A DNA stretch of 64,000 nt from positions 4,549,155 to 4,613,154 of the forward strand of contig OZ014422.1 in NCBI GenBank assembly GCA_963965975.1, written 5' to 3'. This stretch comes from Xestospongia bergquistia. Taxonomy: Eukaryota > Porifera > Demospongiae > Haplosclerida > Petrosiidae. The notes below the pieces were generated by a model, which did no database searches, was not told the DNA's origin, and saw nothing but the letters and a program-made list of their open reading frames with translations. The translations under genes were made by a program, and so were the position numbers. Numbering within the stretch: the stretch's first letter is position 1; each line of letters opens with the position of its first letter. Positions 12,864 to 55,457 of this stretch are shown one piece after another.

Positions 12864-14006
12864 CAGTCTAAAGGACTCTATGGGACTAACTAAATAAACT
12901 GTTATTAACAGTTTAGCAAGTTGGTTTGCATTAATACTCTAAAGTCTTTAATTTAAAGACGTTAGAAGGTTTAGACTACTGAGTGAAGTTTATAAAGTAA
13001 ACAGCTCATTTTAAAGGACTCTATGAAACTAAATAATTAAACTGCTTTTAACAGTTTAGTAAGTTCGTTTGCATTAACACTCTAAAGTCTTTAAATTAAA
13101 GTGTTTAGAAGGTTTTGACTATTGTATGAAGTTTATAAAGTAAAGAGCTTAGTCTAAGGGACTCTACAGGATTAAGTAAATAAACTAGTACTAACAGTTT
13201 AGTAAGTTGGTTTGCATTAACACTCTAAAGTCTTTAAATTTAAGAGTTTAGAAGGTTTAGACTATTGAGTGAAGAGTATAATGTAAACAGCTCAGTCTAA
13301 AGGACTCTATGGGACTAACTAAATAAACTCCTTTTAACAGTTTGGCAAGTTGGTTTGCATTAACACTCTAAAGTCTTTAATTTAAAGACTTTAGAAGGTT
13401 TAGACCTTTGAGTGAAGTTTATAAAGTAAACAGCTCAGTTTAAAGGACTCTATGAAACTAAATAAATAAACTTTTATTAACAGTTTAGCAAGTTGGTTTG
13501 CATTAATACTCTAAAGTCTTTAATTTAAAGACGTTAAAAGGTTTAGACTACTGAGTGAAGTTTATAAAGTAAACAGCTCATTTTAAAGGACTCTATGAAA
13601 CTAAATAATTAAACCGCTTTTAACAGTTTAGTAAGTTTGTTTGCATTAACACTCTAAAGTCTTTAAATTCAAGTGTTTAGAAGGTTTAGACTATTGAATC
13701 GAGTTTATAAAGTAAGGAGCCTAGTCTAAGGGAATCTACCGGACTAAGTAAATAAACTAGTATTAACAGTTTAGTAAGTTGGTTTGCATTAACACTCTAA
13801 AGTCTTTAAATTTAAGAGTTTAGAAGGTTTAACTGTGGAGTGAAGAGTATAATGTAAACAGCTCAGTCTAAAGGACTCTATGGGACTAACTAAATAAACT
13901 CCATTTAACAGTTGAGCAAGTTGGTTTGCATTAACACTATAAATTCTTTAATTGAAAGACTGTAGAAGGATTAGACGATTGAGTGAAGTTTATAAAGTAA
14001 ACATCT
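12864..14006. repeat. Tetramer tandem duplication spanning the Domain I/II border (2 x ~572 bp)
   Basis: 12864-13435 and 13436-14006 share a run of private variants: CATTAATACTC with GACGTT, then AAACTAAATAATTAAAC, then a start reading TAGTCTAAGGGA with AAACTAGTA, then AAATTTAAGAGTTTAG with GAAGAGTATAATGT, then AAACTCC. The second copy is the one that resembles the long repeat at 26.45-27.03 kb. The homology of Domain II to its sister copies therefore begins inside this duplication, at about 13.4 kb. Confidence 0.85.
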
Positions 14007-15865
14007 CAGTTTAAAGGACGCTATGAAACTAAATAAATAAACTGCATTTAACAGTTTAGTAAGTTGGTTTGCATTAACACTCTAAAGTCTTTAATTTAAA
14101 GACTTTAGAAGGTTTAGACTATTGATTGAAGTTTTTAAAGTAAACAGCTCAGTCTAAAGGACTCTATGGGACTAACTAAAAAAACCGCTATTAACAATTT
14201 AGTAAGTTTATTTGTATTAACACTCTAAAGTCGTTAATTTAATGAATTTAGAAGGTTTAGAGAACTTAGTAAATTTTATAAAGTAAACTGGTCAGTCTAA
14301 AGAACTCTATGGGACTAACTAAATAAACTGCTATTAACAGTTTAGTAAGTTGGTTTGCATTAACACTCTAAAGTCTTTAATTTAAAGAGTTTAGAAGGTT
14401 TAGACTATTGAGTGAAGTTCATAATGTAAACAGCTCAGTCTAAAGGACTCTATGGGACTAACTAAATAAACTGTTATTAACAGTTTAGCAAGTTGGTTTG
14501 CATTAACACTCTAAAGTCTTTAATTTAAAGACGTTAGAAGGTTTAGACTATTGAGTGAAGTTTATAAAGTAAGCAGCTCAGTTTAAAGGACTCTAGGAAA
14601 GTAAATAAATAACACTGCTTTTAACAGTTTAGTAAGTTCGTTTGCATTAACACTCTAAAGTGTTTAATTTGAAGACTTTAGAAGGTTTAGACTATTGAGT
14701 GAAGTTTTTAATGTAAACAGCTCAGTCTAAAGGACTCTATGGGACAAACTAAATAAACTGCAACTAACAGTTTAGTAAGTTGGTTCGCATTAACACTCTA
14801 AAGTCTTTAATTTAAAGACTTTAGAAGGTTTAGACTATTGAGTGAAGTTTATAAAGTAAACAGCTCAGTCTAAAGGACTCTATGAAACTAAATAAATAAA
14901 GTGCTATAACAGTTTAGTAAGTTGGTTTGCATTAACATTCTAAAGTCTTTAAATTAAAGAGTTTAGAAGGTTTAGACTATTGAGTGAAGTTTATAAAGTA
15001 AACAGCTCAGTCTAAAGGACTCTATGGGACTAAATAAATAAACTGCTATAAACAGTTTAGTAAGTTGTTTTGCATTAACACTCTAAAGTCTTTAATTTAA
15101 TGACTTTAGAAATTTGTGACTGTTGAGTGAAGTTTATAAAGTAAACAGCTCTGTATAAAGGACTCTATGAAAGTAAATAAATAAACTGCTATTAAAAGTT
15201 TAGTAAGTTGTTTTGCATTAACACTCTAAACTCTTTAATTTAATGACTTTAGAAGGTTTAGACTATTGAGTGACGTATATAAAGAAAATAGCTCGGTCTA
15301 AAGGACTCTATGGGACTAACTAAGTAAACTGCTATTAACAGTTTAGTAAGATGTTTTGCATTAACAATCTAAAGTCTTTAAATTAAAGTGTTTAGAAGGT
15401 TTAGACTATTGAATGAAGTTTATAAAGTAAAGAGCTTAGTCTAAAGGACTCTATGGGACTAAGTAAATAAACTGTTATTAACAGTTTAGTAAGTTGGTTT
15501 GCATTAACAATCTAAAGTCTTTAATTTAAAGACTATATAAGGTTTAGACTATCGAGTAAATTTTATAGTGTAAACTGCTCATTCTAAAGGACTGTATGGG
15601 ACTAACTAAATAAACTGCTATTAACAGTTTAGTAAGTTGGTTTGCATTAACACTCTAAAGTCTTTAAATTAAAGATTTTAGAAGATTTAGACTATTGAGT
15701 GAAGTTTTTAAAGTAAACAGCTCAGTCTAAAGGACTCTATGAGACTAACTAAATAAACCGCTATTAACAATTTAGTAAGTTGATTTGTATTAACACTCTA
15801 AAGTCTTTAATTTAAAGAATTTAGAACGTTTAGAGTACTTAGTAAATTTTATAAAGTAAACTGGT

Positions 15866-16723
15866 CCGTCTAAAGGACTCTATGGGACTAACTAAATAAA
15901 CTGCTATTAACAGTTTAGTAAGTTGGTTTGCATTAACACTCTAAAGTCTTTAATTTAAAGAGTTTAGAAGGTTTAGACCATTGAGTGAAGTTTATAATGT
16001 AAACAGCTAAGTCTAAAGGACTCTATGGGACTAACTAAATAAATTGTTATTAACAGTTTAGCAAGTTGGTTTGCATTAACACTCTAAAGTCTTTAATTTA
16101 AAGACGTTAGAAGGTTTAGACTATTGAGTGAAATTTATAAAGTAAGCAGCTCAGTTTAAAGGACTCTATGAAACTAAATAAATAAACTGCTTTTAACAGT
16201 TTAGTAAGTGGGTTTGCATTAACAATCTAAAGTCTTTAATTTAAAGACTTTAGGAGGTTTAGACTATTGAGTGAATTTTTTAAAGTAAACAGCTCAGTCT
16301 AAAGGACTCTATGGGACTAACTAAATAAACTGCTATTAACAGTTTAGTAAGTTTGTTTGCATTAACACTCTAAAGTCTTTAATTTAAAGAGTTTAGAAGG
16401 TTTAGACCATTGAGTGAAGTTTATAATGTAAACAGCTCAGTCTAAAGGACTCTATGGGACTAACTAAATAAACTGTTATTAACAGTTTAGCAAGTTGGTT
16501 TGCATTAACACTCTAAAGTCTTTAATTTAAAGACGTTAGAAGGTTTAGACTATTGAGTGAAGAATATAAAGTAAGCAGTTCAGTTTAAAGGACTCTATGA
16601 AACTAAATAAATAAACTGCTTTTAACAGTTTAGTAAGTGGGTTTGCATTAACAATCTAAAGTCTTTAATTTAAAGACTTTAGAAGGTTTAGACTATTGAG
16701 TGAATTTTTTAAAGTAAACAGCT
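15866..16723. repeat. Trimer tandem duplication in copy W (2 x 429 bp)
   Basis: An A-B-C trimer beginning at 15866 is followed by a second beginning at 16295. Both A copies have the variant GACCATTGAGTG, and both C copies have GTGGGTTTGC with CATTAACAATC. The B starts are 429 bp apart (16009 and 16438), three monomers. In X and Y the corresponding region instead has extra monomers between the first A and the remaining monomers. Confidence 0.85.
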
Positions 16724-18436
16724 CAGTCTAAAGGACTCTATGGGACTAACGAAATAAACTGCTGCTAACAGTTTAGTAAGTTGGTTTGCATTAACACTCT
16801 AAAGTCTTTAATTTGAAGACTTTTGAAGGTTTAGACTATTGAGTGAACTTTCTAAAGTAAACAGCTCAGTCTAAAGGACTCTATGAAACTAAATAAATAA
16901 AGTGCTATAACAGTTTAGTAAGTTGGTTTGCATTAACACTCTATAGTCTTTAAACTAAAGACTTTAGAAGGTTTAGACTATTGAGTGAAGCTTAAAATGT
17001 AAACAGCCCAGTCTAAGGACTGTATGGGACTAACTAAATAAACTGCTATTAACAGTTTAGTAAGTTGGTTTGCATTAACACTCTAAAGTCTTTAATTTAG
17101 AGACTTTAGAAATTTGTGACTATTGATTGAATTTTATAATGTAAACAGCTCAGTCTAAAGGACTCTATGGGACTAATAAAGAAACTGTTATTAACAGTTT
17201 AGAAAGTTGGTTTTCATTAACAATCTAAAGTCTTTAATTTAAAGACTTTAGAAGGTTTAGACTATTGAGTGAAGTTTATAAAGTAAACTGGTCAGTTTAA
17301 AGGACTCTATGAAACCAAATAAGTAAACTGCTTTCAACAGTTTAGTAAGTTCGTTTGCGTTAACACTCTAAAGTCTTTAATTTAAAGACTTTAGAAGGTT
17401 TAGACTATTGAGTGAAGTTTTTAAAGTAAAGAGCTCAGTCTAAAGGACTCTATGGGACTAACTAAATAAACTCTTATTAACTGTTTAGCAATTTTGTTTC
17501 CATTAACACTCTAAAGTCTTTAATTTAATGACGTTAGAAGGTTTAGACTATTGAGTGAAGTTTATAAAGTAAACAGCTCTGTTTAAAGGACTCTATGAAA
17601 CTAAATAAATAAACTGCTTTTAACAGTTTAGTAAGTTGGTTTGCATTAACACTCTAAAGTCTTTAATTTAAAGAGTTTAGATGGTTTACACTATTGAGTG
17701 AAGTTTTTAATGTAAACAGCTCAGTCTAAAGGACTTTATGGGACTAACTAAATAAACTGCTTTTAACACTTTAGTAAGTTGATTTGCATTAACACTCTAA
17801 AGTCTTTAATTTAAAGAATTTAGAAGGTTTAGATTACTTAGTAAATTTTATAAAGTAAACTGGTCAGTATAAAGGACTCTATGGGACTAACTAAATAAAC
17901 TGCTATTAACAGTTTAGTAAGTTGGTTTGCTTTAACACTCTAAACTCTTTAATTTAAAGACTTTAGAAGTTTCAGACTATTGAGTGAAGTTTATAATGTA
18001 AACAGCTGAGTCTAAAGGACTCTATGAAGCTAAATAAATAAACTGCTTTTAACAGTTTAGTAAGTTGGTTTGCATTAACACTCTAAAGTCTTTAATTTAA
18101 AGACTTTAGAACGTTTACACTATTGAGTGATGTTTATAAAGTAAACAGCTCAGTCTAAAGGACTCTATGGGACTAACTAAATAAACTGCTATTAACAGTT
18201 TAGTAAGTTCGTTTGCATTAACACTCTAAAGTCTTTAATTTAAAGACTTTAGAATGTTTAGATTATTGAGTGAAGTTTATAAAGTAAACAGCTCTGTATA
18301 AAGGACTCTATGAAACTAAATAAATAAACTGCTATTAAAAGTTTAGTAAGCTGGTTTGCATTAACACTCTAAAGTGTTTAATTTAAAGACTTTAGAAAGT
18401 TTAGACTATTGAGTGAAGTTTATAAAGAAGATAGCT

Positions 18437-18580
18437 CAGTATAAAGGCCTCTATGGGACTAACTAAATAAAATGTTATTAACAGTTTAGCAAGTAGGTTT
18501 ACAAGTAACACTCTAAAGTCTTTAATTTAAAGACGTTAGAAGGTTTAGACTATTGAGTGAAGTTTATAAAGTAAACTGCT
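18437..18580. repeat. Hybrid monomer in copy W
   Basis: One monomer stands where X has two (32170-32455). It begins CAGTATAAAGGCCTC like the E monomer of X, then reads AAATGTTATTAACAG and GCAAGTAGGTTTAC with GACGTT like a neighbouring B monomer (compare 18737-18800), and joins back to GTAAACTGCTCATTC. The result is consistent with deletion of one monomer plus local gene conversion. Confidence 0.75.
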
Positions 18581-20437
18581 CATTCTAAAGGACTCTATGG
18601 GACTAACTAAAGAAACTGCTATTAACAGTTTAGTAAGTTGGTTTGCATTAACTCTCTAAAGTCTTTAAATTAAGGATTTTAGAAGGTTTAGACTATTGAG
18701 TGAAGTTTATAATGTAGAAAGCTCAGTCTAAACGACTCTATGGGACTAACTAAATAAAATGTTATTAACAGTTTAGCAAGTAGGTTTCCATTAACACTCT
18801 AAAGTCTTTAATTTAAAGACGTTAGAAGGTTTAGACTATTGAGTGAAGTTTATAAAGTAAATAGCACAGTTTAAAGGACTCTATGAAACTAAATAAATAA
18901 ACTGCTTTTAACAGTTTAGTAAGTTGGTTTGCATTAACACTCTAAAGTCTTTAATTTAAAGACTTTAGAAGGTTTACACTATTGATTGAAGTTTTTAAAG
19001 TAAACAGCTCAGTCTAAAGGACTTTATGGGACTAACTAAATAAACCGCTATTAACAGTTTAGTAAGTTGATTTGCATTAACACTCTAAAATCTTTAATTT
19101 AAAAAATTTAAAAGTTTAGAGTACTTAGTAAATTTTATAAAGTAAACTGGTCAGTATAAATGACTCTATGGGACTGACTAAATAAACTGCTATTAACAGT
19201 TTAGTAAGTTGTTTTGCATTAACACTCTAAACTCTTTAATTTAAAGACTTTAGAAGGTTTAGACTATTGAGTGAAGTTTATAATGTAAACAGCTCAGTCT
19301 AAAGGACTCTATGAAGCTAGATAAATAAACTGCTATTAACAGCTTAGTAAGTTGGTTTGCATTAACACTCTAAAGTCTTTAATTTAAAGACTTTAGAAGG
19401 TTTATACTATTGAGTGAAGTGTATAAAGTAAACAGCTCAGTCTAAAGGACTCTATGAAACTAAATAAATAAAGTGCTATAACAGTTTAGTAAGTTGGTTT
19501 GCGTTAACACTATAAAGTTTTTAAATTAAAGAGTTTAGAATGTTTAGACTATTGAGTGAAATTTATAATGTAAACAGCTCAGTCTAAAGGACTCTATGGG
19601 ACTAACTAAAGAAACTGTTATTAACAGTTTTGTAAGTTGGTTTGCATTAACACTCTAAAGTCTTTAATTTGAAGACGTTAGAAGGTTTAGACTATTGAGT
19701 GAAGTTTATAAAGTAAAAAGCTCAGTTTAAAGGACTCTATGAAACTAAATAAATAAACTGCTTTTAACAGTTTAGTAAGTTGGTTTGCATTAACACTCTA
19801 AAGTCTTTAATTTAAAGAGTTTAGAAGGTTTAGACAATTGAGTGAAGTTTATAATGTAAAGAGCTCAGTCTAAAGGACTCTATGGGACTAACTAAATAAA
19901 CTGTTATTAACAGTTTAGAAAGTTTGTTTTCATTGACAATCTAAAGTCTTTAATTTAAAGACTTTACAAGGTTTAGACTATTGAGTGAAGTTTGTAAAGT
20001 AAACTGGTCAGTTTAAAGGAGTCTATGAAACCAAATAAGTAAACTGCTTTTAACAGTTTAGTAAGTTCGTTTCATTAACACTCTAAAGTCTTTAATTTAA
20101 AGACTTTAGAAGGTTTAGACTATTGAGTGAAGTTATTAAAGTAAACAGCTCAGTCTAACGGACTCTATGGTACTAACTAAATAAACTGTTATTAACAGTT
20201 TAGTAAGTTGGTTTGCGTTAACACTCTAAACTCTTTAATTTAAAGACTTTAGAAGTTTTAGACTATTGAGTGAAGTTTATAATGTATACAGCTCAGTCTA
20301 AAGGACTCTATGAAGCTAAATAAATAAACTGCTTTTAACAGTTTAGTAAGTTGGTTTGCATTAACACTCTAAAGTCTTTAATTTAAAGACTTTAGAAGGT
20401 TTAGACTATTGAGTGAAGTTTATAAAGTAAACAGCTC

Positions 20438-23010
20438 AGTCTAAAGGACTCTATGGGACTAACTAAATAAACTGCTATTAACGGTTTAGTAAGTTGGTTT
20501 GCATTAACACTCTAAAGTCTTTAATTTAAAGACTTTAGAATGTTTAGACTATTGAGTGAAGTTTATAAAGTAAACAGCTCTGTATAAAGGACTCTATGAA
20601 ACTAAATAAATAAACTGCTGTTAAAAGTTTACTAAGTTGGTTTGCATTAACACTCTAAAGTCTTTAATTTAAAGACTTTAGAAGGTTTAGACTATTGAGT
20701 GATGTTTATAAAGAAAATAGCTCAGTATAAAGGATTCTATGGGACTAACTAAGTAAATTGCTATTAACAGTTTAGTAAGATCTTTTGCATTAACACTCTA
20801 AAGTCTTTAAATTAAAGTGTGTAGATGGTTTAGACTATTGAGTGAAGTTTATAAAGTAAAGAGCTTAGTCTAAAGGACTCTATGGGACTAAGTGGATAAA
20901 CTGTTATTAACAGTTTAGTAAGTTTGTTTGCATTAACACTCTAAAGTCTTTAATTTAAAGACTTTATAAGGTTTAGACTATTGAGTAAATTTTATAAAGT
21001 AAACTGCTCATTCTAAAGGACTCTATGGGACTAACTAAATAAACTGCTATTAATAGTTTAGTAAGTTGGTTTGCATTAACTCTCTAAAGTCTTTATATTA
21101 AGGAGTTTAGAAGGTTTAGACTATTGAGTGAAGTTTATAATGTAGAAAGCTCAGTCTAAACGACTCTATGGGACTAACTAAATAAACTCTTATTAACAGT
21201 TTAGCAAGTTGGTTTACATTAACACTCTAAAGTCTTTAGTTTAAAGACGTTAAAAGCTTTAGACGATTGAGTGAAGTTTATAAAGTAAACAGCTCAGTTT
21301 AAAGGACTCTATGAAACTAAATAAATAAACTGCTTTTAACAGTTTAGTAAGTTGGTTTGCATTAACACTCTAAAGTCTTTAATTTAAAGACTTTATAATG
21401 TTTAGACTATTGAGTGAAGTTTATAAAGTAAACAGCTCTGTATAAAGGACTCTATTAAACTAAATAAATAAAATGCTATTGAAAGTTTAGTAAGTTGGTT
21501 TGCATTAACACTCTAAAGTCTTTAATTTAAAGACTTTAGAATGTTTAGACTATTGAGTGAAATTTATAAAGAAAATAGCTCCGTCTAAAGGACTCTATGG
21601 GACTAACTAAGTAAACTGCCATTAACAGTTTAGTAAGTTGGTTTGCATTAACACTCTAAAGTCTTTAAATTAAAGTGTTTAGAAGGTTTAGACTATTGAG
21701 TGAAGTTTATAAAGTAAAAAGCTCAGTCTAAAGGACTCTATGGGACTAACTAAATAAACTGCTATTAACGTTTTAGTAAGTTGGTTTGCATTAACACTCT
21801 AAAGTCTTTAATTTAAAGACTTTAGAATGTTTAGACTATTGAGTGAAGTTTATAAAGTAAACAGCTCTGTATAAAGGACTCTATGAAACTAAATAAATAA
21901 ACTGCTGTTAAAAGTTTACTAAGTTGGTTTGCATTAACACTCTAAAGTCTTTAATTTAAAGACTTTAGAAGGTTTAGACTATTGAGTGAGGTTTATAAAG
22001 AAAATAGCTCAGTATAAAGGATTCTATGGGACTAACTAAGTAAATTGCTATTAACAGTTTAGTAAGATCTTTTGCATTAACACTCTAAAGTCTTTAAATT
22101 AAAGTGAGTAGATGGTTTAGACTATTGAGTGAAGTTTATAAAGTAAAGAGCTTAGTCTAAAGGACTCTATGGGACTAAGTGGATAAACTGTTATTAACAG
22201 TTTAGTAAGTTTGTTTGCATTAACACTCTAAAGTCTTTAATTTAAAGACTTTATAAGGTTTAGACTATTGAGTAAATTTTATAAAGTAAACTGCTCATTC
22301 TAAAGGACTCTATGGGACTAACTAAATAAACTGCTATTAATAGTTTAGTAAGTTGTTTTGCATTAACTCTCTAAAGTCTTTATATTAAGGAGTTTAGAAG
22401 GTTTAGACTATTGAGTGAAGTTTATAATGTAGAAAGCTCAGTCTAAACGACTCTATGGGACTAACTAAATAAACTCTTATTAACAGTTTAGCAAGTTGGT
22501 TTACATTAACACTCTAAAGTCTTTAGTTTAAAGACGTTAAAAGCTTTAGACGATTGAGTGAAGTTTATAAAGTAAAATGCTCAGTTTAAAGGACTCTATG
22601 AAACTAAATAAATAAACTGCTTTTAACAGTTTAGTAAGTTGGTTTGCATTAACACTCTAAAGTCTTTAATTTAAAGACTTTATAATGTTTAGACTATTGA
22701 GTGAAGTTTATAAAGTAAACAGCTCTGTATAAAGGACTCTATTAAACTAAATAAATAAAATGCTATTGAAAGTTTAGTAAGTTGGTTTGCATTAACACTC
22801 TAAAGTCTTTAATTTAAAGACTTTAGAATGTTTAGACTATTGAGTGAAATTTATAAAGAAAATAGCTCCGTCTAAAGGACTCTATGGGACTAACTAAGTA
22901 AACTGCCATTAACAGTTTAGTAAGTTGGTTTGCATTAACACTCTAAAGTGTTTAAATTAAAGTGTTTAGAAGGTTTAGACTATTGAGTGAAGTTTATAAA
23001 GTAAAAAGCT
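20438..23010. repeat. 9-mer tandem duplication in copy W (2 x ~1287 bp, partial third)
   Basis: Units start at 20438, 21724 and 23011, spaced 1286 and 1287 bp. Each has a monomer reading CTATTAACGG or a close variant, a G monomer with GCTGTTAAAAGTTTACTAAG, an E with AAGATCTTTTGC, an F with AAGTGGATAAAC, A, B with CTCTTATTAAC, C, G with CTCTATTAAAC, and an E with a CCGTCTAAAG start. The two copies look almost identical by eye. The third stops after about two monomers near 23297. X and Y have this 9-mer only once (near 36171 and 49457), so the duplication is private to W. Confidence 0.9.
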
Positions 23011-23296
23011 CAGTCTAAAGGACTCTATGGGACTAACTAAATAAACTGCTATTAAAGTTTTAGTAAGTTGGTTTGCATTAACACTCTAAAGTCTTTAATT
23101 TAAAGACTTTAGAATGTTTAGACTATTGAGTGAAGTTTATAAAGTAAACAGCTCTGTATAAAGGACTCTATGAAACTAAATAAATAAACTGCTGTTAAAA
23201 GTTTACTAAGTTGGTTTGCATTAACACTCTAAAGTCTTTAAATTAAAGACTTTATAAGGTTTAGACTATTGAGTGAAGTTTATAAAGAAAATAGCT

Positions 23297-23740
23297 CAGT
23301 ATAAAGGATTCTATGGGACTAACTAAATAAACTGTTATTAACAGTTTAGAAAGTTTGTTTTCATTGACAATCTAAAGTCTTTAATTTAAAGACTTTAGAA
23401 GGTTTAGGCTATTGAGTGAAGTTTATAAAGTAAACTATTAACTATTTATTCTAAAGTCTTTAATTTAAAGACTTTAGAAGGTTTAGACTATTGAGTGAAT
23501 TTTATAAAGAAAATAGCTCAGTATAAAGGATTCTATGGGACTAACTAAATAAACTGTTATTAACAGTTTAGAAAGTTTGTTTTCATTGACAGTCTAAAGT
23601 CTTTAATTTAAAGACTTTAGAAGGTTTAGACTATTGAGTGAAGTTTATAAAGTAAACTATTAACTATTTATTCTAAAGTCTTTAATTTAAAGACTTTAGA
23701 AGGTTTAGACTATTGAGTGAATTTTATAAAGAAAATAGCT
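23297..23740. repeat. 222-bp composite units: full monomer plus 79-bp truncated monomer, in tandem
   Basis: Units 23297-23518 and 23519-23740 are each one full monomer (143 bp) plus a 79-bp remnant. The remnant lacks 64 bp: the sequence jumps from AAAGTAAACT to ATTAACTATTTATTCTAAAG, losing the monomer start and most of the dyad 1 region. The deletion lies between two TAAAC(T/A) words of the monomer, so short homology may have been involved. The two units differ at only a couple of bases (GACAATC versus GACAGTC; TTTAGGCT versus TTTAGACT). The full monomer is itself a hybrid: its start is as at 23.3 kb and its centre (AGAAAGTTTGTTTTCATTG) is as at 19.9 kb. Confidence 0.9.
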
Positions 23741-26700: not shown

Positions 26701-29025
26701 AGGTTTAGACTATTGAATCGAGTTTATAAAGTAAAGAGCCTAGTCTAAGGGACTCTACAGGACTAAGTAAATAAACTAGTATTAACAGTTTAGTAAGTTG
26801 GTTTTCATTAACACTCTAAAGTCTTTAAATTTAAGAGTTTAGAAGGTTTAACTATTGAGTGAAGAGTATAATGTAAACAGGTCAGTCTAAAGGACTCTTT
26901 GGGACTAACTAAATAAACTCCTTTTAACAGTTGAGCAAGTTGGTTTGCATTAACACTATAAATTCATTAATTGAAAGACGGTAGAAGGATTAGACGATTG
27001 AGTGAAGTTTATAAAGTAAACAGCTCAGTTTAAAGGACGCTATGAAACTAAATAAATAAACTGCATTTAACAGTTTAGTAAGTTGGTTTGCATTAACACT
27101 CTAAAGTCATTAATTTAAAGACTTTAGAAGGTTTAGACTATTGATTGAAGTTTTTAAAGTAAACAGCTCAGTCTAAAGGACTCTATGGGACTAACTAAAA
27201 AAACCGCTATTAACAATTTAGTAAGTTGATTTGTATTAACACTCTAAAGTCGTTAATTTAATGAATTTAGAAGGTTTAGAGAACTTAGTAAATTTTATAA
27301 AGTAAACTGGTCAATCTAAAGAACTCTATGGGACTAACTAAATAAACTGCTATTAACAGTTTAGTAAGTTGGTTTGCATTAACACTCTAAAGTCTTTAAT
27401 TTAAAGACTTTAGAAGGTTTAGACTATTGAGTGAAGTTCATAATGTAAACTGCTCATTCTAAAGGACTCTATGGGACTAACTAAATAAACTGTTATTAAC
27501 AGTTTAGCAAGTTGGTTTGCATTAACACTCTAAAGTCTTTAATTTAAAGACGTTAGAAGGTTTAGACTATTGAGTGAAGTTTATAAAGTATGCAGCTCAG
27601 TTTAAAGGACTCTAGGAAAGTAAATAAATACACTGCTTTTAACAGTTTAGTAAGTTTGCTTGCATTAACACTCTAAAGTCTTTAATTTAAAGACTTTAGA
27701 AGCTTTAGACTATTGAGTGAAGTTTTTAATGTAAACAGCTCAGTCTAAAGGACTCTATGGGACAAACTAAATAAACTGCAACTAACAGTTTAGTAAGTTG
27801 GTTCGCATTAACACTCTAAAGTCTTTAATTTAAAGACTTTAGAAGGTTTAGACTATAGAGTGAAGTTTATAAAGTAAACAGCTCAGTGTAAAGGACTCTA
27901 TGAAACTAAATAAATAAAGTGCTATAACAGTTTAGTAAGTTGGTTTGCATTAACATTCTAAAGTCTTTAAATTAAAGAGTTTACAAGGTTTAGACTATTG
28001 AGTGAAGTTTATAATGTAAACAGCTCAGTCTAAGGACTCTATGGGACTAACTAAATAAACTGCTATTAACAGTTTAGTAAGTTGGTTTGCATTAACACTC
28101 TAAAGTCTTTAATTTAAAGACTTTAGAAATTTGTGACTATTGAGTGAAGTTTATAAAGTAAACAGCTCTGTATAAAGGACTCTATGAAACTAAATAAATA
28201 AACTGCTATTAAAAGTTTAGTAAGTTGTTTTGCATTAACACTCTAAAGTCTTTAATTTAATGACTTTAGAAGGTTTAGACTATTGAGTGACGTTTATAAA
28301 GAAAATAGCGCAGTCTAAAGGACTCTATGGGACTAACTAAGTAAACTGCTATTAACAGTTTAGTAAGATGTTTTGCATTAACAATCTAAAGTCTTTAAAT
28401 TAAAGTGTTTAGAAGGTTTAGACTATTGATTGAAGTTTATAAAGTAAAGAGCTTAGTCTAAAGGACTCTATATGACTAAGTAAATAAACTGTTATTAACA
28501 GTTTAGTAAGTTGGTTTGCATTAACAATCTAAAGTCTTTAATTTAAAGACTTTATAAGGTTTAGACTATTGAGTAAATTTTATAGTGTAAACTGCTCATT
28601 CTAAAGGACTGTATGGGACTAACTAAATAAACTGCTATTAACAGTTTAGTAAGTTGGTTTGCATTAACACTCTAAAGTCTTTAAATTAAAGATTTTAGAA
28701 GATTTAGACTATTGAGTAATTTTTATAGTGTAAACTGCTCAATCTAAAGGACTCTACGAGACTAACTAAATAAACCGCTATTAACAATTTAGTAAGTTGA
28801 TTTGTATTAACACTCTAAAGTCTTTAATTTAAAGAATTTAGAACGTTTAGAGTACTTAGTAAATTTTATAAAGTAAACTGGTCCGTCTAAAGGACTCCAT
28901 GGGACTAACTAAATAAACTGCTATTAACAGTTTAGTAAGTTGGTTTGCATTAACACTCTAAAGTCTTTAATTTAACGAGTTTAGAAGGTTTAGACCATTG
29001 AGTGAAGTTTATAATGTAAACAGCT

Positions 29026-36456: not shown

Positions 36457-36599
36457 CAGTATAAAGGATTCTATGGGACTAGCTAAGTAAACTGCTATTA
36501 ACAGTTTAGTAAGTTTGTTTGCATTAACACTCTAAAGTCTTTAATTTAAAGCCTTTATAAGGTTTAGACTATTGAGTAAATTTTATAAAGTAAACTGCT
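36457..36599. repeat. E/F hybrid monomer, one-monomer deletion private to copy X
   Basis: One 143-bp monomer starts like E (CAGTATAAAGGATTC, CTAAGTAAACTGC) and ends like F (CCTTTATAAGG, TTGAGTAAATTTT, ACTGCTCATTC). Copies W (about 20724-21009) and Y (49743-50028) have two separate monomers here, 286 bp in Y. The join lies within the shared AGTTTAGTAAG to TAATTTAAAG region, as expected for unequal exchange between neighbouring monomers. Confidence 0.87.
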
Positions 36600-43400: not shown

Positions 43401-46400
43401 TAATTTAAAGAGTTTAGAAGGTTTAGACCATTGAGTGAAGTTTATAATGTAAACAGCTCAGTCTAAAGGACTCTATGGGACTAACTAAATAAACTGTTAT
43501 TAACAGTTTAGCAAGTTGGTTTGCATTAACACTCTAAAGTCTTTAATTTAAAGACTTTAGAAGGTTTAGACTATTGAGTGATGTTTATAAAGTAAGCAGT
43601 TCAGTTTAAAGGACTCTATGAAACTAAATAAATAAACTGCTTTTAACAGTTTAGTAAGTGGGTTTGCATTAACAATCTAAAGTCTTTAATTTAAAGACTT
43701 TAGAAGGTTTAGACTATTGATTGAATTTTTTAAAGTAAACAGCTCAGTCTAAAGGACTCTATGGGACTAAATAAATAAACTGCTGCTAACAGTTTAGTAA
43801 GTTTGTTTGCATTATAACTCTAAAGACTTTAATTTGAAGACTTTAGAAGGTTTAGACTATTGAGTGAACTTTATAAAGTAAACAGCTCAGTCTAAAGGGC
43901 TCTATGAAACTAAATAAATAAAGTGCTATAACAGTTTAGTAAGTTGGTTTGCATTAACACTCTAAAGTCTTTAAGCTAAAGACTTTAGAATGTTTAGACT
44001 ATTGAGTGAAGCTTATAATGTAAACAGCTCAGTCTAAGGACTGTATGGGACTAACTAAATAAACTGCTATTAACAGTTTAGTAAGTTGGTTTGGATTAAC
44101 ACTCTAAAGTCTTTAATTTAGTGACTTTAGAAATTTGTGACTATTGATTGAAGTTTATAATGTAAACAGCTCAGTCTAAAGGACTCTATGGGACTAATAA
44201 ATAAACTGTTATTAACAGTTTAGAAAGTTGGTTTTCATTAACAATCTAAAGTCTTTAATTTAAAGACTTTAGAAGGTTTAGACTATTGAGTGAAATTTAT
44301 AAAGTAAACTGGTCAGTTTAAAGGACTCTATGAAACCAAATAAGTAAACTGCTTTTAACAGTTTAGTAAGTTCGTTTGCATTAACACTCTAAAGTCTTTA
44401 ATTTAAAGACTTTAGAAGGTTTAGACTATTGAGTGAAGTTTTTAAAGTAAAGAGCTCAGTATAAAGGACTCTATGGGACTAACTAAATAAGCTCTTATTA
44501 ACTGTTTAGCAAGTTGGTTTCCATTAACACTCTAAAGTCTTTAATTTAAAGACGTTAGAAGGTTTAGACTATTGAGTGAAGTTTATAAAGTAAACAGCTC
44601 AGTTTAAAGGACTCTATGAAACTAAATAAATAAACTACTTTTAACAGTTTAGTAAGTTTGTTTGCATTAACACTCTAAAGTCTTTAATTTAAAGACTTTA
44701 GATGGTTTACACTATTGAGTGAAGTTTTTAATGTAAACAGCTCAGTCTAAAGGACTTTATGGGACTAACTAAATAAACTGCTATTAACACTTCAGTAAGT
44801 TGATTTGCATTAACACTCTAAAGTCTTTAATTTAAAGAATTTAGAAGGTTTAGATTACTTAGTAAATTTTATAAAGTAAACTGGTCAGTATAAAGGACTC
44901 TACGGGACTAACTAAATAAACTGCTATTAACAGTTTAGTAAGTTGGTTTGCTTTAACACTCTAAACTCTTTAATTTAAAGACTTTAGAAGTTTTAGACTA
45001 TTGAGTGAAGTTTATAATGTAAACAGCTGAGTCTAAAGGACTCTATGAAGCTAAATAAATAAACTGCTTTTAACAGTTTAGTAAGTTGGTTTGCATTAAC
45101 ACTCTAAAGTCTTTAATTTAAAGACTTTAGAACGTTTACACTATTGAGTGAAGTTTATAAAGTAAACAGCTCAGTCTAAAGGACTCTATGCGACTAACTA
45201 AATAAACTGCTATTAACAGTTTAGTAAGTTGGTTTGCATTAACACTCTAAAGTCTTTAATTTAAAGACTTTAGAATGTTTAGATTATTGAGTGAAGTTTA
45301 TAAAGTAGACAGCTCTGTATAAAGGACTCTATGAAACTAAATAAATAAACTGCTATTAAAAGTTTAGTAAGCTGGTTTGCATTAACACTCTAAAGTCTTT
45401 AATTTAAAGACTTTAGAATGTTTAGACTATTGAGTGAAGTTTATAAAGAAGATAGCTCAGTATAAAGGCCTCTATGGGACTAACTAAGTAAACTGCTAGT
45501 AACAGTTTAGTAAGATGTTTTGCATTAACACTCTAAAGTCTTTAAATTAAAGTGTATAGAAGGTTTAGACTAATGAGTGAAGTTTATAAAGTAAAGAGCT
45601 TAGTTTAAAGGACTCTATGGGACTAAGTAGATAAACTGTTATTAAAAGTTTAGTAAGTTGGTTTGCATTAACACTCTAAAGTCTTTAATTTAAAGACTTT
45701 ATAAGGTTTAGACTATTGAGTAAATTTTATAAAGTAAACTGCTCATTCTAAAGGACTCTATGGGACTAACTAAAGAAACTGCTATTAACAGTTTAGTAAG
45801 TTGGTTTGCATTAACTCTCTAAAGTCTTTAAATTAAGGATTTTAGAAGGTTTAGACTATTGAGTGAAGTTTATAATGTAGAAAGCTCAGTCTAAACGACT
45901 CTATGGGACTAACTAAATAAAATGTTATTAACAGTTTAGCAAGTAGGTTTCCATTAACACTCTAAAGTCTTTAATTTAAAGACGTTAGAAGGTTTAGACT
46001 ATTGAGTGAAGTTTATAAAGTAAATAGCACAGTTTAAAGGACTCTATGAAACTAAATAAATAAACTGCTTTTAACAGTTTAGTAAGTTGGTTTGCATTAA
46101 CACTCTAAAGTCTTTAATTTAAAGACTTTAGAAAGTTTACACTATTGACTGAAGTTTTTAAAGTAAACAGCTCAGTCTAAAGGACTTTATGGGACTAACT
46201 AAATAAACCGCTATTAACAGTTTAGTAAGTTGATTTGCATTAACACTCTAAAATCTTTAATTTAAAAAATTTACAAGGTTTAGAGTACTTAGTAAATTTT
46301 ATAAAGTAAACTGGTCAGTATAAATGACTCTATGGGACTGACTAAATAAACTGCTATTAACAGTTTAGTAAGTTGGTTTGCATTAACACTCTAAACTCTT

Positions 46401-49400
46401 TAATTTAAAGACTTTAGAAGGTTTAGACTATTGAGTGAAGTTTATAATGTAAAGAGCTCAGTCTAAAGGACTCTATGAAGCTAAATAAATAAACTGCTAT
46501 TAACAGTTTAGTAAGTTGGTTTGCATTAACACTCTAAAGTCTTTAATTTAAAGACTTTAGAAGGTTTATACTATTGAGTGAAGTGTATAAAGTAAACAAC
46601 TCAGTCTAAAGGACTCTATGAAACTAAATAAATAAAGTCCTATAACAGTTTAGTAAGTTGGTTTGCGTTAACACTATAAAGTTTTTAAATTAAAGAGTTT
46701 AGAATGTTTAGACTATTGAGTGAAATTTATAATATAAACAGCTCAGTCTAAAGGACTCTATGGGACTAACTAAAGAAACTGTTATTAACAGTTTTGCAAG
46801 TTGGTATGCATTAACACTCTAAAGTCTTTAATTTGAAGACGTTAGAAGGTTTAGACTATTGAGTGACGTTTATAAAGTAAAAATCTCAGTTTAAAGGACT
46901 CTATGAAACTAAATAAATAAACTGCTTTTAACAGTTTAGTAAGTTGGTTTGCATTAACACTCTAAAGTCTTTATTTTAAAGAGTTTAGAAGGTTTAGACT
47001 ATTGAGTGAAGTTTATAATGTAAACAGCTCAGTCTAAAGGACTCTATGGGACTAACTAAATAAACTGTTATTAACAGTTTAGAAAGTTGGTTTTCATTGA
47101 CAATCTAAAGTCTTTAATTTAAAGACTTTAGAAGGTTTAGACTATTGAGTGAAGTTTATAAAGTAAACTGGTCAGTTTAAAGGACTCTATGAAACCAAAT
47201 AAGTAAACTGCTTTTAACAGTTTAGTAAGTTCGTTTCATTAACACTCTAAAGTCTTTAATTTAAAGACTTTAGAAGGTTTAGACTATTGAGTGAAGTTAT
47301 TAAAGTAAACAGCTCAGTCTAACGGACTCTATGGGACTAACTAAATAAACTGCTATTAACAGTTTAGTAAGTTGGTTTGCATTAACACTCTAAAGTCTTT
47401 AATTTAAAGACTTTAGAATGTTTAGACTATTGAGTGAAGTTTATAAAGTAAACAGCTCTGTATAAAGGACTCTATGAAACTAAATAAATAAACTGCTATT
47501 AAAAGTTTAGTAAGTTGGTTTGCATTAACACTCTAAAGTCTTTAATTTAAAGACTTTAGAAGGTTTAGACTATTGAGTGAAGTTTATAAAGAAGATAGCT
47601 GAGTATAAAGGACTCTATGGGACTAACAAAGTAAACTGCTATTAACAGTTTAGTATATGTTTTGCATTAACACTCTAAAGTCTTTAAATTAAAGTGTATA
47701 GAAGGTTTACACTATTGAGTGAAGTTTATAAAGTAAAGAGCTTAGTCTAAAGGACTCTATTGGACTAAGTAGATAAACTGTTATTAACAGTTTAGTAAGT
47801 TGGTTTGCATTAACACTCTACAGTCTTTCATTTAAAGACTTTATAAGGTTTAGACTATTGAGTAAATTTTATAAAGTAAACTGCTCATTCTAAAGGACTC
47901 TATGGGACTAACTAAAGAAACTGCTATTAACAGTTTAGTAAGTTGGTTTGCTTTAACTCTCTAAAGTCTTTAAATTAAGGAGTTTAGAAGGTTTAGACTA
48001 TTGAGTGAAGTTTATAATGTAGAAAGCTCAGTCTAAACGACTCTATGGGACTAACTAAATAAACTCTTATTAACAGTTTAGCAAGTTGGTTTGCATTAAC
48101 ACTCTAAAGTCTTTAGTTTTAAGACGTTAGAAGGCTTAGACGATTGAGTGAAGTTTATAAAGTAAACAGCTCAGTTTAAAGGACTCTATGAAACTAAATA
48201 AATAAACTTCCTTTAACAGTTTAGTAAGTTGGTTTCCATTAACACTCTAAAGTCTTTAATTTAAAGACTTTAGAAGGTTTAGACTATTGAGTGTAGTTTA
48301 TGCAGTAAACAGCTCTGTATAAAGGACTCTATTAAACTAAATAAATAAAATGCTATTAAAAGTTTAGTAAGTTGGTTTGCATTAACACTCTAAAGTCTTT
48401 AATTTAAAGACTTTAGAAGGTTTAGACTATTGAGTGAAGTTTATAAATAAAATAGCTCAGTCTAAAGGACTCTATAGGACTAACTAAGTAAACTGCCATT
48501 AACAGTTTAGTAAGATGTTTTGCATTAACACTCTAAAGTCTTTAAATTAAAGTGTTTAGAAGATTTAGAGTATTGAGTGAAGTTTATAAAGTAAAGAGCT
48601 TAGTCTAAAGAACTCTATGGGACTAAGTAGATAAACTGTTATTAACAGTTTAGTAAGTTGGTTTGCATTAACACTCTAAAGTCTTTAACTTAAAGACTTT
48701 ATAAGTTTAGACTATTGAGTAAATTTTATAAAGTAAACTGCTCATTCTATAGGACTCTATGGGACTAACTAAATAAACTGGTATTAACAGTTTAGTAAGT
48801 TTGTTTGCATTAACTCTCTAAAACTTTAAATTAAGGAGTTTAGAAGGTTTAGACTATTGAGTGAAGTTTATAATGTAGAAAGCTCAGTCTAAACGACTCT
48901 ATGGGACTAACTAAATAAACTCTTATTAACAGTTTAGCAAGTTGGTTTGCATTAACACTCTAAAGTCTTTAGTTTAAAGACGTTAGAAGGTTTAGACGAT
49001 TGAGTCAATTTTATAAAGTAAACAGCTCAGTTTAAAAGACTCCATGAAACTAAATAAATAAACTGCTTTTAACAGTTTAGTAAGTTGGTTTGCATTAAGA
49101 CTCAAAAGTCTTTAATTTAAAGACTTTAGAAGGATTAGACTACTGAGTGAAGTTTATAAGGTAAACAGCTCTGTATAAAGGACTCTATTAAAGTAAATAA
49201 ATAAAATGCTATTAAAAGTTTAGTAAGTTGGTTTGCATTAACACTCTAAACTCTTTAATTTAAGGACTTTACAAGGTTTAGACTATTGAGTGAAGTTTAT
49301 AAAGTAAACAGCTCAGTCTAGAGGACTCTATGAAGCTAAATAAATAAACTGCTATTAACAGTTTAGTAAGTTGGTTTGCATTAACACTCTAAAGTCTTTA

Positions 49401-50886
49401 ATTTAAAGACTTTAGAAGGTTTAAACTATTGAGTGAAGTTTATAAAGTAAACAGCTCAGTCTAAAGGACTCTATGGGACTAACTAAATAAACTGCTATTA
49501 ACGGTTTAGTAAGTTGGTTTGCATTAACACTCTAAAGTCTTTAATTTAAAGACTTTAGAATGTTTAGACTATTGAGTGAATTTTATAAAGTAAACAGCTC
49601 TGTATAAAGGACTCTATGAAACTAAATAAATAAACTGCTGTTAAAAGTTTACTAAGTTGGCTTGCATTAACACTCTAAAGTCTTTAATTTAAAGACTTTA
49701 GAAGGTTTAGACTATTGAGTGAAGTTTATAAAGAAAATAGCTCAGTATAAAGGATTCTATGGGACTAACTAAGTAGACTGCTATTAACAGTTTAGTAAGA
49801 TCTTTTGCATTAACACTCTAAAGTCTTTAAATTAAAGTGTGTAGAAGGTTTAGACTATTTAGTGAAGTTTATAAAGTAAAGAGCTTAGTCTAAAGGACTC
49901 TATGGGACTAAGTGGATAAACAGTTATTAACAGTTTAGTAAGTTTGTTTGCATTAACACTCTAAAGTCTTTAATTTAAAGACTTTATAAGGTTTAGACTA
50001 TTGAGTAAATTTTATAAAGTAAACTGCTCATTCTAAAGGACTCTATGGGACTAACTAAATAAACTGCTATTAATAGTTTAGTAAGTTGGTTTGCATTAAC
50101 TCTCTAAAGTCTTTATATTAAGGAGTTTAGAAGGTTTAGACTATTGAGTGAAGTTTATAATGTAGAAAGCTCAGTCTAAACGACTCTATGGGACTAACTA
50201 AATAAACTCTTATTAACAGTTTAGCAAGTTGGCTTCCATTAACACTCTAAAGTCTTTAGTTTAAAGACGTTAAAAGGTTTAGACGATTGAGTGAAGTTTA
50301 TAAAGTAAACAGCTCAGTTTAAAGGACTCTTTGAAACTAAATAAATAAACTGCTTTTAACAGTTTAGTAAGTTCGTTTGCATTAAGACTCTAAAGTCTTT
50401 AATTTAAAGACTTTAGAAGGTTTAGACTATTGAGTGAAGTTTATAAAGTAAACAGCTATGTATAAAGGACTCTATTAAACTAAATAAATAAAATGCTATT
50501 AAAAGTTTAGTAAGTTGGCTTGCATTAACACTCTAAAGTCTTTAATTTAAAGACTTTAGAATGTTTAGACTATTGAGTGAAGTTTATAAAGAAAATAGCT
50601 CCGTCTAAAGGACTCTATGGGACTAACTAAGTAAACTGCCGTTAACAGTTTAGTAAGATGTTTTGCATTAACACTCTAAAGTCTTTAAATTAAAGTGTTT
50701 AGAAGGTTTAGACTATTGAGTGAACTTTATAAAGTAAAGAGCTTAGTCTAAAGAACTCTATGGGACTAAGTAGATAAACTGTTATTAACAGTTTAGTAAG
50801 TTGGTTTGCATTAACACTCTAAAGTCTTCAATTTAAAGACTTTATAAGGTTTAGACTATTGAGTAAATTTTATAAAGTAAACTGCT
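37458..50886. repeat. HOR copy Y, complete (13429 bp)
   Basis: Y is the copy with neither the X-specific gain at 29.5 kb nor the X-specific loss at 36.5 kb, so it is the best reference for the 94-mer. It carries the moved block (about 42.46-43.18 kb), the hexamer pair (from 47601) and a single 9-mer (from 49457). Its first part is strikingly like Z: I read 38.04-38.28 kb and 51.47-51.71 kb side by side and saw no difference in about 240 bases. A small private indel is GTTTAGTATATGTTTTGC near 47650. Confidence 0.92.
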
Positions 50887-53800
50887 CATTCTGAAGGACT
50901 GTATGGACTAACTAAATAAACTGCTATTAACAGTTTAGTAAGGTGGTTTGAATTAACACTATAAAGTCTTTAAATTAAGGAGATTAGAGGGTTTAGAATA
51001 TTGAGTGATGTTTATAATGTAGACAGCTCAGTCTAAAGGACTCTATGGGACTAACTAAATAAACTCTTATTAACAGTTTAGCAAGTTGGTTTGCATTAAC
51101 ACTCTAAAGTCTTTAGTTTTTAGACGTTAAAAGGTTTAGACGATTGAGTGAAGCTTATAAAGTAAACAGCTCAGTTTAAAGGACTCTTTGAAACTAAATA
51201 AATAAACTGCTTTCAACAGTTTAGTAAGTTGGTTTGCATTAACACTCTAAAGTCTTTAATTTAAAGACTTTAGATGGTTTAGACTATTGAGTGAAGTTTT
51301 TAAAGTAAACAGCTCAGTCTAAAGGACTCTAAGGGACTAACTAAATAAACCGCTATTAACAGTTTAGTAAGTTGATTTGCATTAACACTCTAAAGTTTTT
51401 AATTTAAAGAATGTAGAAGGTTTAGAGTACTGAGTAAATTTTATAAAGTAAACAGGTCAGTCTAAAGGACTCTATGGGACTAACTAAATAAACTGCTATT
51501 AACAGTTTAGTAAGTTGGTTTGCATTAACACTCTAAAGTCTTTAATTTAAAGACTTTAGAATGTTTAGACTATTGAGTGAAGTTTATAATGTAAACAGCT
51601 CAGTCTAAAGGACTCTATGGGAGTAAATAAATAAACTGTTATTAACAGTTTAGCAAGTTGGTTTGCGTTAACACTCTAAAGTCCTTAATTTAAAGACGTT
51701 AGAAGGTTTAGACTATTGAGTGAAGTTTATAAAGTAAACAGCTCAGTTTAAAGGACTCTATGAAACGAAATAAATAAACTGCTTTTAACAGTTTAGTAAG
51801 TTGGTTTGCATTAACAGTCTAAAGTCTTTAATTTAAAGTGTATAGAAGTTTTAGACTATTGAGTGAAGTTTATAAAGTAAAGAGCTTAGTCTAAAGGACT
51901 CTATGGGACTAAGTAAATAAACTGTTATTAACAAATTAGTAAGTTAGTTTCCATTAACAATCTAAAGTCTTTAATTTAAAGACTTTATAAAACTTTGACG
52001 ATTGAGCGAAGTTTATAAAGTAAACAGCTCAGTTTAAAGGACTCTATGAAACTAAATAAATAAACTGCTTTTAACAGTTTAGTAAGTTGGTTTCCATTAA
52101 CACTCTAAAGTCTTTAATTTAAACACTTTAGAAGGTTTAGAGTATTTAGTGAAGTTTATAAAGTAAACAGCTCAGTATAAAGGACTCTATGGGACTAACT
52201 AAATCAACCGCTATTAACAGTTTAGAAAGTTGATTTGCAATAACACTCTAAAGTCTTTAATGTAAAGACTTTAGAAGGTTTAGACTATTGAGTGAAGTTT
52301 ATAAAGTAAATAGCTCAGTCTAGAGGACTCTATTACGCTAAAGAAATAAACTGCTATTAACAGTTTAGTAAGTTGGTTTGCACTAACACTCTGAAGTCTT
52401 TAATTTAAAGACTTTTGAAGGTTTAGACTATTGAGTGAAGTATATAAAGTAAACAGTTCAGTCTAAAGGACTCTATGGGACTAACTAAATAAACTGCTAT
52501 TAACAGTTTAGTAAGTTGGTTTGCGTTAACACTCTAAAGTCTTTAATTTAAAGACTTTAGATATTTTTGACTATTGAGTGAAGTTTATAAAGTAAACAGC
52601 TCTGTATAAAGGACTCTATGAAAGTAAATAAATAAACTGCTATTAAAAGTTTAGTAAGTTGATTTGCATTAACACTTTAAAGACTTTAATTTAAAGAATT
52701 TAGAAGGTTTAGACTATTGAGTGAAGTTTTTAAAGTAAACAGCTCAGTTTAAGGACTCTATGGGACTAACTAAATAAACTGCTATTAACAGTTTAGTCAG
52801 TTGGTTTGCATTAACACTCTAAAGTCTTTAATTTAAAGAGTTTAGAAGGTTTAGACTATTTAGTGAAGTTTATAATGTAAACAGCTCAGTCTAAAGGACT
52901 CTATGGGACTAACTAAATAAACTGTTATTAACAGTTTAGCTAGTTGGTTTGCATTAACACTCTAAAGTCTTTAATTTAAAGACATTAGAAGGTTTAGACT
53001 ATTGAGTGAATTTTATAAAGTAAACAGCTCAGTTTAATGGACTCTATGAAACTAAATGAATAAGCTGCTTTTAACAGTTTAGTAAGTTGGTTTGCATTAA
53101 CACTCTAAAGTCTTTAATTTAAAGACTTTAGAAGGTTTAGACGTTTGAGTGAAGTTTATAAAGTAAACAGCTCAGTTTAAAGGACTCTATGAAACTAAAA
53201 AAATAAACTTTTATTAACAGTTTAGCAAGTTGGTTTGCATTAATACTCTAAAGTCTTTAATTTAAAGACGTTAAAAGCTTTAGACTACTGAGTGAAGTTT
53301 ATAAAGTAAACAGCTCATTTTAAAGGACTCTAAGAAACTAAATAATTAAACCGCTTTTAACAGTTTAGTAAGTTGGTTTGCATTAACACTCTAAAGTCTT
53401 TAAATTAAAGTGTTTAGAAGGTTTAGACTATTGAATCGAGTTTATAAAGTAAAGAGCCTAGTCTAAGGGACTCTACAGGACTAAGTAAATAAACTAGTAT
53501 TAACAGTTTAGTAAGTTGGTTTGCATTAACACTCTAAAGTCTTTAAATTTAAGAGTTTAGAAGGTTTAACTATTGAGTGAAGAGTATAATGTAAACAGCT
53601 CAGTCTAAAGGACTCTTTGGGACTAACTAAATAAACTCCTTTTAACAGTTGAGCAAGTTGGTTTGCATTAACACTATAAATTCTTTAATTGAAAGACGGT
53701 AGAAGGATTAGACGATTGAGTGAAGTTCATAAAGTAAACAGCTCAGTTTAAAGGACGCTATGAAACTAAATAAATAAACTGCATTTAACAGTTTAGTAAG

Positions 53801-55028
53801 TTGGTTTGCATTAACACTCTAAAGTCTTTAATTTAAAGACTTTAGAAGGTTTAGACTATTGATTGAAGTTTTTAAAGTAAACAGCTCAGTGTAAAGGACT
53901 CTATGGGACTAACTAAAAAAAACGCTATTAACAATTTAGTAAGTTGATTTGTATTAACACTCTAAAGTCGTTAATTTAATGAATTTAGAAGGTTTAGAGA
54001 ACTTAGTAAATTTTATAAAGTAAACTGGTCAGTCTAAAGAACTCTATGGGACTAACTAAATAAACTGCTATTAACAGTTTAGTAAGTTGGTTTGCATTAA
54101 CACTCTAAAGTCTTTAATTTAAAGAGTTTAGAAGGTTTAGACTATTGAGTGAAGTTCATAATGTAAACAGCTCAGTCTAAAGGACTCTATGGGACTAACT
54201 AAATAAACTGTTATTAACAGTTTAGCAAGTTGGCTTGCATTAACACTCTAAAGTCTTTAATTTAAAGACGTTAGAAGGTTTAGAATATTGAGTGAAGTTT
54301 ATAAAGTAAGCAGCTCAGTTTAAAGGACTCTAGGAAAGTAAATAAATACACTGCTTTTAACAGTTTAGGAAGTTTGTTTGCATTAACACTCTAAAGTCTT
54401 TAATTTAAAGACTTTAGAAGGTTTAGACTATTGAGTGACGTTTTTAATGTAAACAGCTCAGTCTAAAGGACTCTATGGGACAAACTAAATAAACTGCAAC
54501 TAACAGTTTAGTAAGTTGGTTCGCATTAACACTCTAAAGTCTTTAATTTAAAGACTTTAGAAGGTTTAGACTATTGAGTGAAGTTTATAAAGTAAACAGC
54601 TCAGTCTAAAGGACTCTATGAAACTAAATAAATAAAGTGCTATAACAGTTTAGTAAGTTGGTTTGCATTAACATTCTAAAGTCTTTAAATTAAAGAGTTT
54701 AGAAGGTTTAGACTATTGAGTGAAGTTTATAATGTAAACAGCTCAGTCTAAGGACTCTATGGGACTAACTAAATAAACTGCTATTAACAGTTTAGTAAGT
54801 TGGTTTGCATTAACACTCTAAAGTCTTTAATTTAAAGACTTTAGAAATTTGTGACTATTGAGTGAAGTTTATAAAGTAAACAGCTTTGTATAAAGGACTC
54901 TATGAAACTAAATAAATAAGCTGCTATTAAAAGTTTAGTAAGTTTTTTTGCATTAACACTCTAAAGTCTTTAATTTAATGACTTTAGATGGTTTAGGCTA
55001 TTGAGTGACGTTTATAAAGAAAATAGCG
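50887..55028. repeat. HOR copy Z, truncated at its right end
   Basis: Z follows Y in register from CATTCTGAAG at 50887 until the monomer starting at 55029. There the expected E-F pair (as at 41744) is replaced by Domain-I-like monomers. It has lost one monomer near 52745. After that loss its offset to Y drops from 13429 to 13285 bp (53458 against 40173), and it keeps that offset to the breakpoint. Confidence 0.9.
52745..52886. repeat. Fused monomer marking a one-monomer deletion in copy Z
   Basis: Copy Y has two monomers here (39316-39601, 286 bp): a D (CCGCTATTAACAGTTGAG) and an A (CAATTTAGTCAG). Z has one of 142 bp that ends like the A (AGTTTAGTCAGTTGG) and begins CAGTTTAAGGACTC, one base short. 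The deletion crossed from the start of D to the start or middle of A. Confidence 0.87.
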
Positions 55029-55457
55029 CAGTCTAAAGGACTCTATGGGACTAACTAAATAAACTCTTATTAACAGTTTAGCAAGTTGGTTTGCATTAAT
55101 ACTCTAAAGTCTTTAATTTAAAGATGTTAGAAGGTTTAGACTATTGAGTGAAGTTTATAAAGTAAACAGCTCAGTTTAAAGGACTCTATGGAACTAAATA
55201 AATAAACTGCTTGTAACAGTTTAGTAAGTTGGTTCGCATTAACACTCTAAAGTTTTTAATTTAAAGACTTTAGAAGGTTTAGACTATGGAGTGTTGTTTT
55301 TAAAGTAAACAGCTCAGTCTAAAAAACTCTATGGGACTAACTAAATAAACCGCTATTAACAGTTTAGGAAGTTTATTAGCATTAACACTCTAAAGTCTTT
55401 AATTTAAAGAATTTAGAAGGTTTAGAGTACTTAGTGAATTTTATAAAGTAAACTGGT

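Follow-up and report, generated by a model that had tools for sequence, protein, structure and literature searches.

Does the satellite DNA of the sponge Xestospongia bergquistia contain a higher-order repeat (HOR) of as many as 94 monomers, and, if it does, how was so long a unit copied? The question is raised by a 64,000-nucleotide stretch of contig OZ014422.1 (positions 4,549,155 to 4,613,154; GenBank assembly GCA_963965975.1), referred to here as the window, for which a first-pass annotation had proposed a HOR of 94 monomers and 13.43 kb. From its first base to its last (1–64000), the window is filled without interruption by head-to-tail monomers of a 143-bp satellite (28.6% G+C, no Ns), which form the tandem array of related monomers that a HOR presupposes. 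A consensus-anchored 143-bp cut yields 447 full monomers and two end fragments, and 388 of these 449 rows are exactly 143 bp long. Identity to the consensus averages 0.928 across all rows, end fragments included, and the median identity of monomer pairs across the window is 88.1%. Percent identities throughout are taken from the consensus-anchored rows, in which deletions are scored as differences and insertions relative to the consensus are not scored.

The maximum expected at lag 94 from the first-pass annotation appears when the monomers are compared in an identity matrix (447 of the 449 rows, the two end fragments being omitted). Among lags 1 to 399, mean identity peaks at lags 94 and 93 (0.8963 and 0.8952), and pairs that are at least 97% identical make up 15.3% of the total at lag 94 and 17.0% at lag 93; the next lag, 187, reaches 6.2%. 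The four highest-scoring ungapped runs fall at the same two lags: 48 monomers at lag 93 (98.3% identity), 39 at lag 94 (98.1%), 19 at lag 94 (99.4%), and 16 at lag 93 (98.7%). In DNA terms, the lag-94 runs are offset by 13,429–13,433 bp, reproducing the spacing of the variant landmarks described previously, and the lag-93 runs by 13,285–13,289 bp. The observed run score is 270, compared with a best score of 16 in 20 shuffles of the monomer order. For 106 of the 124 monomers numbered 167–290, moreover, the closest match found beyond 30 monomers downstream lies at lag 93 or 94. The matrix maxima and the run score bear out the 94-monomer, 13.43-kb unit: a very long, low-copy HOR is present in this array.

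Four copies of the unit, W, X, Y, and Z, can be delimited (Table 1), and the earlier count of two full and two partial copies proves correct, with W diverged and interrupted by indels, X and Y complete, and Z 30 monomers long. X and Y are adjacent and head to tail, and their matched monomers are far more alike than the monomers within one block, with a mean identity of 98.25% over 93 X–Y pairs (one-monomer gaps allowed, with one such gap per side) versus a mean of 88.1% within X. Identity averages 99.0% between Y and Z and 98.3% between X and Z (30 pairs each), and it is 97.4% for each of W–X (64 pairs), W–Y (66 pairs), and W–Z (14 pairs). When only the monomers of Y compete, 91 of the 93 X monomers have their best or tied-best match in the lag partner, which for 82 of them is the strict best. 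Best or tied-best partners number 67 of 93 when all 446 other monomers compete, including the W and Z copies and near neighbors, and 85 of 93 with W and Z excluded; for two of the 93, a neighbor within X is closer than the partner in Y.

The block has well-defined limits, and from the start of W to the end of Z it spans ≈3.1 units. At the left edge, the eight monomers just outside differ at 8–20 positions from the X and Y monomers expected to pair with them, and the first monomer inside at 2–3. At the right edge, the last inside monomer has 4–5 differences and the next eight have 9–24. Within the window, best local alignments to the block reveal no further copy in the flanks (94 monomers before the block and 62 after it), the closest being 6 monomers at 95.7% on the left and 7 monomers at 94.9% on the right. 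The number of copies inside the 64-kb window is thus below the tens that characterize a homogenized array. Six monomers immediately left of the block (87–92, about 12445–13302) resemble monomers 369–374 in Z at 95.7% identity and at a different offset. Because monomers 369–374 correspond to the part of the block where W begins, the left edge appears to bear traces of an older rearrangement.

Table 1. Coordinates of the satellite array, the four copies of the long repeat, and associated features within the window.
Feature	Coordinates	Strand	Basis
Continuous 143-bp satellite array, 447 full monomers	1..64000	+	Tandem-repeat analysis, monomer cut
Copy W, partial and diverged, several monomers gained or lost	13446..23893	+	Run finding, gapped monomer comparison
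Copy X, complete, 94 monomers, 13,431 bp	23894..37324	+	Run finding, gapped monomer comparison
Copy Y, complete, 94 monomers, 13,429 bp	37325..50753	+	Run finding, gapped monomer comparison
Copy Z, 30 monomers, truncated, abrupt right edge	50754..55038	+	Gapped monomer comparison
Irregular stretch, 2.9 copies of a 222-bp unit, immediately left of the W/X boundary	23228..23878	+	Repeat analysis, monomer cut
Adjacent monomers with 4 differences; one monomer gained by X (or lost by Y), lag 94 to 93	29465..29752	+	Run finding, gapped comparison
Monomer present in Y and in X (25894, 1 difference), missing from Z; lag 94 to 93	39326..39468	+	Gapped comparison
1,077-bp tract identical to 50726–51802, lag 13,429	37297..38373	+	Exact-repeat search
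Partner of the 1,077-bp identical tract	50726..51802	+	Exact-repeat search

The first-pass annotation had attributed spacings off the main period to gained or lost monomers, and the shifts between lags 93 and 94 can indeed be traced to extra or missing monomers in X, Y, and Z. Because X carries an extra monomer near 29465 and Y an additional one near 49753, 48 of the 93 matched X–Y pairs stand at lag 93, with the other 45 at lag 94. W has changed more, lacking 12 monomers relative to X and carrying three extra. Its homology to X and Y fades out near monomer 160, after which comes the irregular 222-bp stretch, the sole place in the window where the 143-bp register is broken. Each 222-bp unit consists of 208 bp of satellite and a 14-base filler, part of which lies within an 8-base word also found elsewhere in the monomer. 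Judged from these bases, the stretch looks like an end-joining junction that was later amplified.

The differences among the copies also carry a record of their history. Y and Z are identical over a tract of 1,077 bp, the window's longest exact repeat, and outside it their 21 remaining monomers contain 39 private differences (1.3%). At that outside rate, the chance of such an identical run is 5e-5, a rough figure estimated after the tract had been seen, and we infer that the tract reflects a recent conversion or exchange. In the same 21 monomers, the split between X and Y–Z is 1.44 times as deep as that between Y and Z (bootstrap 95% interval, 1.06–2.11). Over the 45 monomers common to W, X, and Y, the split of W is 1.19 times as deep as that of X and Y (0.98–1.47), not clearly older. 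Thirteen monomers occur in each of the four copies; among them, sites shared two against two support WX|YZ four times, WZ|XY once, and WY|XZ never, and private changes number 28 in W, 15 in X, 16 in Y, and 11 in Z, a pattern close to a star. The split depths and the shared sites would fit an order in which W split off before X, and X before Y and Z.

How, then, did the copies arise? One segment of ≈94 monomers (13.4 kb) of non-coding satellite would have been tandemly duplicated, probably in several rounds, either through in-register unequal crossing-over, with a sister chromatid or a homologue as partner, or through break-induced replication started at a displaced monomer. Because an order of 94 monomers is repeated, a segment of ≈13.4 kb is likely to have been copied as a whole. 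Single-monomer gains and losses would have come afterward, as would the conversion or exchange that produced the identical Y–Z tract. We regard in-register homologous exchange or break-induced copying of this kind as the likely origin of the block. The earlier suggestion that amplification acted on very long segments is upheld, and of the three mechanisms put forward with it, which included replication slippage, large unequal exchange (or break-induced repair) in our judgment fits best; nothing calls for the re-insertion of a rolling circle, which had also been put forward. Several points nevertheless weigh against the favored account. In-register unequal crossing-over yields whole units and the domain comprises ≈3.1, which requires that one end or both were also trimmed. 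The only breakpoint legible at the base level, the 222-bp stretch, is out of register, and the six monomers of the left flank, which resemble the start of the block at an older level, point to a separate history for the left edge. The order of W, X, and Y/Z is based on few sites, with the split of W not significantly older, and the similar numbers of private changes in X, Y, and Z are nearly star-like.

Some of these same features would be expected if a circle of at least one unit had been excised, copied by rolling-circle amplification, and re-inserted, so that the copies formed almost simultaneously. A non-integer total of units, a nearly equal divergence among W, X, and Y (a ratio of 1.19 with an interval that includes 1), and similar private changes in X, Y, and Z where the four copies overlap are all consistent with such an event, and the non-integer total and near-star divergence keep it under consideration. 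The lack of a visible circle junction is uninformative, because a junction would be invisible in so uniform an array. However, Y and Z are closer to each other than X is to either, even outside the identical tract, and many gaps are private to W, so we consider a rolling circle unlikely.

A further possibility is that the repeat was created in assembly, through mis-joined reads or allelic copies placed in tandem. Satellite arrays are difficult to assemble, and the X–Y divergence of 1.75% falls within the range that allelic divergence reaches in some species. Yet the four copies are 1–2.6% apart and have private differences and indels, the sequence contains no Ns, and the longest exact repeat is only 1,077 bp, so that accurate reads of a few kilobases should separate the copies; on these grounds an artefact is very improbable. 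The least probable of the alternatives is that a broken chromatid was rejoined at short microhomology instead of by homologous exchange. The 222-bp locus, with its out-of-register junction and 14-base filler, would suit such an event, and a precedent exists in maize CEN10 (PMC4806543). Homologous pairing, and not end joining, predicts that the 93- and 94-monomer spacings keep the 143-bp register, and the spacings of adjacent copies deviate from whole multiples of 143 bp by no more than ≈14 bp, which favors homology-guided exchange or break-induced copying over end joining.

Smaller block duplications, of 9, 12, and 15 monomers, occur in the same array. Inside W, a 9-monomer tandem duplication at 99.2% identity occupies 20447–23306. 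Another 9-monomer duplication (55039–58184, lag 1,287 bp, 97.4%), unrelated to the first at the offsets tested, starts exactly at the end of Z at monomer resolution, and one breakpoint may possibly have been reused. A 12-monomer tandem duplication (3584–7015, 96.2%) lies outside the long repeat. Within Y, a 15-monomer internal repeat extends over 45182–50896; because short runs at the same lag occur in X as well (monomers 223–224 and 238–239), it may predate the long duplication. Counted between individual monomers rather than formally called monomer types, nearest neighbors within X have a median of 6 differences and a minimum of 2. These close neighbors and the internal 15-monomer repeats lead us to lean toward a "cascading" HOR over a Willard-type one, whose unit is made up of distinct monomer types throughout.

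Each monomer also contains a 29-bp dyad (0-based consensus positions 64–92) with 14-bp arms and a 1-base spacer; its left arm overlaps the 17-bp stretch that is best conserved within the monomer. Of the 447 monomers, 124 have perfectly matching arms over the inner 27 bp. With arm changes being one-sided in 584 cases and compensated in 0, there is no sign of maintained pairing, and we reject a conserved hairpin. A coding or RNA function was rejected as well, as the whole window yields no open reading frame of at least 100 aa (bacterial code), no tRNA, and no Rfam match at the gathering score. Possibly the function, if any, is that of satellite heterochromatin, putatively centromeric. A prokaryotic, phage, or plasmid origin was likewise dismissed. 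One 2,428-base piece has no blastn match in phages and plasmids, a 23-base piece has none in GTDB species genomes and viral contigs, and a 19-base piece has none in viral contigs. The 19-base piece does match one stretch in a bacterial metagenome-assembled genome, which we count as chance because, by our own estimate, about two 19-base matches are expected in that collection; blastn of 360 bp from this genome against the consensus returned one 20-base piece and others of at most 14 bases.

With this block, satellite amplification in segments of ≈13 kb is documented clearly and at base resolution. The graded divergence of its copies, their single-monomer indels, and the identical tract help to distinguish duplication from later homogenization, and cases of this kind allow models of unequal exchange and conversion to be fitted to real event sizes. 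The 94-monomer block alone does not demonstrate a new process. It seems doubtful that a larger array beyond the window has this block as its canonical unit; if it had, that unit would exceed in monomer count the alpha-satellite HORs compared here (84mer array, 90mer variant copy), and exchange spanning upwards of 13 kb would be routine in one more satellite.

With regard to the satellite itself, searches with 13–14-base consensus words on both strands matched no paper giving it a published name, and a search for 143-bp satellites or repeats returned one paper unrelated by its title and one rotifer satellite with a different G+C content. Overall, no paper could be tied to this satellite in searches that were mostly topic-based and left many journals outside their coverage. 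The rotifer element, rotiSat2 of Brachionus asplanchnoidis, likewise has a 143-bp monomer and long arrays, but the GC peak with which rotiSat1 and rotiSat2 are associated lies at 37% (PMC8447722), as opposed to 28.6% here; the comparison is one of monomer length, array length, and G+C content.

Published primate HORs show that the first-pass description of a 94mer as far above known HORs was too strong. Orangutan alpha satellite includes a 58mer on the Y chromosome with a 90mer variant copy, an 84mer array on chromosome 5 (PMC12428378), and a 59mer on chromosome 13 (PMC11276891); a human 33mer is also described (PMC6718397). Ninety-four monomers is slightly above the longest of the compared units, the 84mer array and the 90mer variant copy, although by our arithmetic an 84mer of 171-bp monomers (≈14.4 kb) is longer in base pairs than the 13.4-kb block. 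Like the orangutan superHORs, the sponge block is a very long tandem multi-monomer unit whose copies are far more alike than its monomers, and some monomer types recur inside the orangutan 58mer, as may also be the case here. Unlike the Y-chromosome 58mer array, whose 67 copies include 46 canonical ones diverging by 0.25% (PMC12428378), the sponge block consists of two full and two partial copies that differ by 1–2.6%, and it is built from a different, AT-rich satellite of 143 bp. A human chromosome 21 alpha-satellite 52mer was termed a HOR from two complete tandem copies only (PMC12385485), as is done here, and for TRASH a HOR consists of two blocks that are similar (PMC10199239). In the human 52mer, alpha-satellite monomers diverge by 17.7% and copies by 0.2%, compared with ≈12% and 1.75% in the sponge. 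Maize CEN10 likewise has a large adjacent duplication, there in centromeric repeat DNA: a 22.7-kb segment in tandem, with the proposal that a broken chromatid was end-joined where short microhomology existed; unlike the sponge unit, its CentC HOR has 10 monomers (PMC4806543). Set beside these systems, the 94-monomer repeat is new as a very long case of a kind already known in the evolution of satellite arrays.

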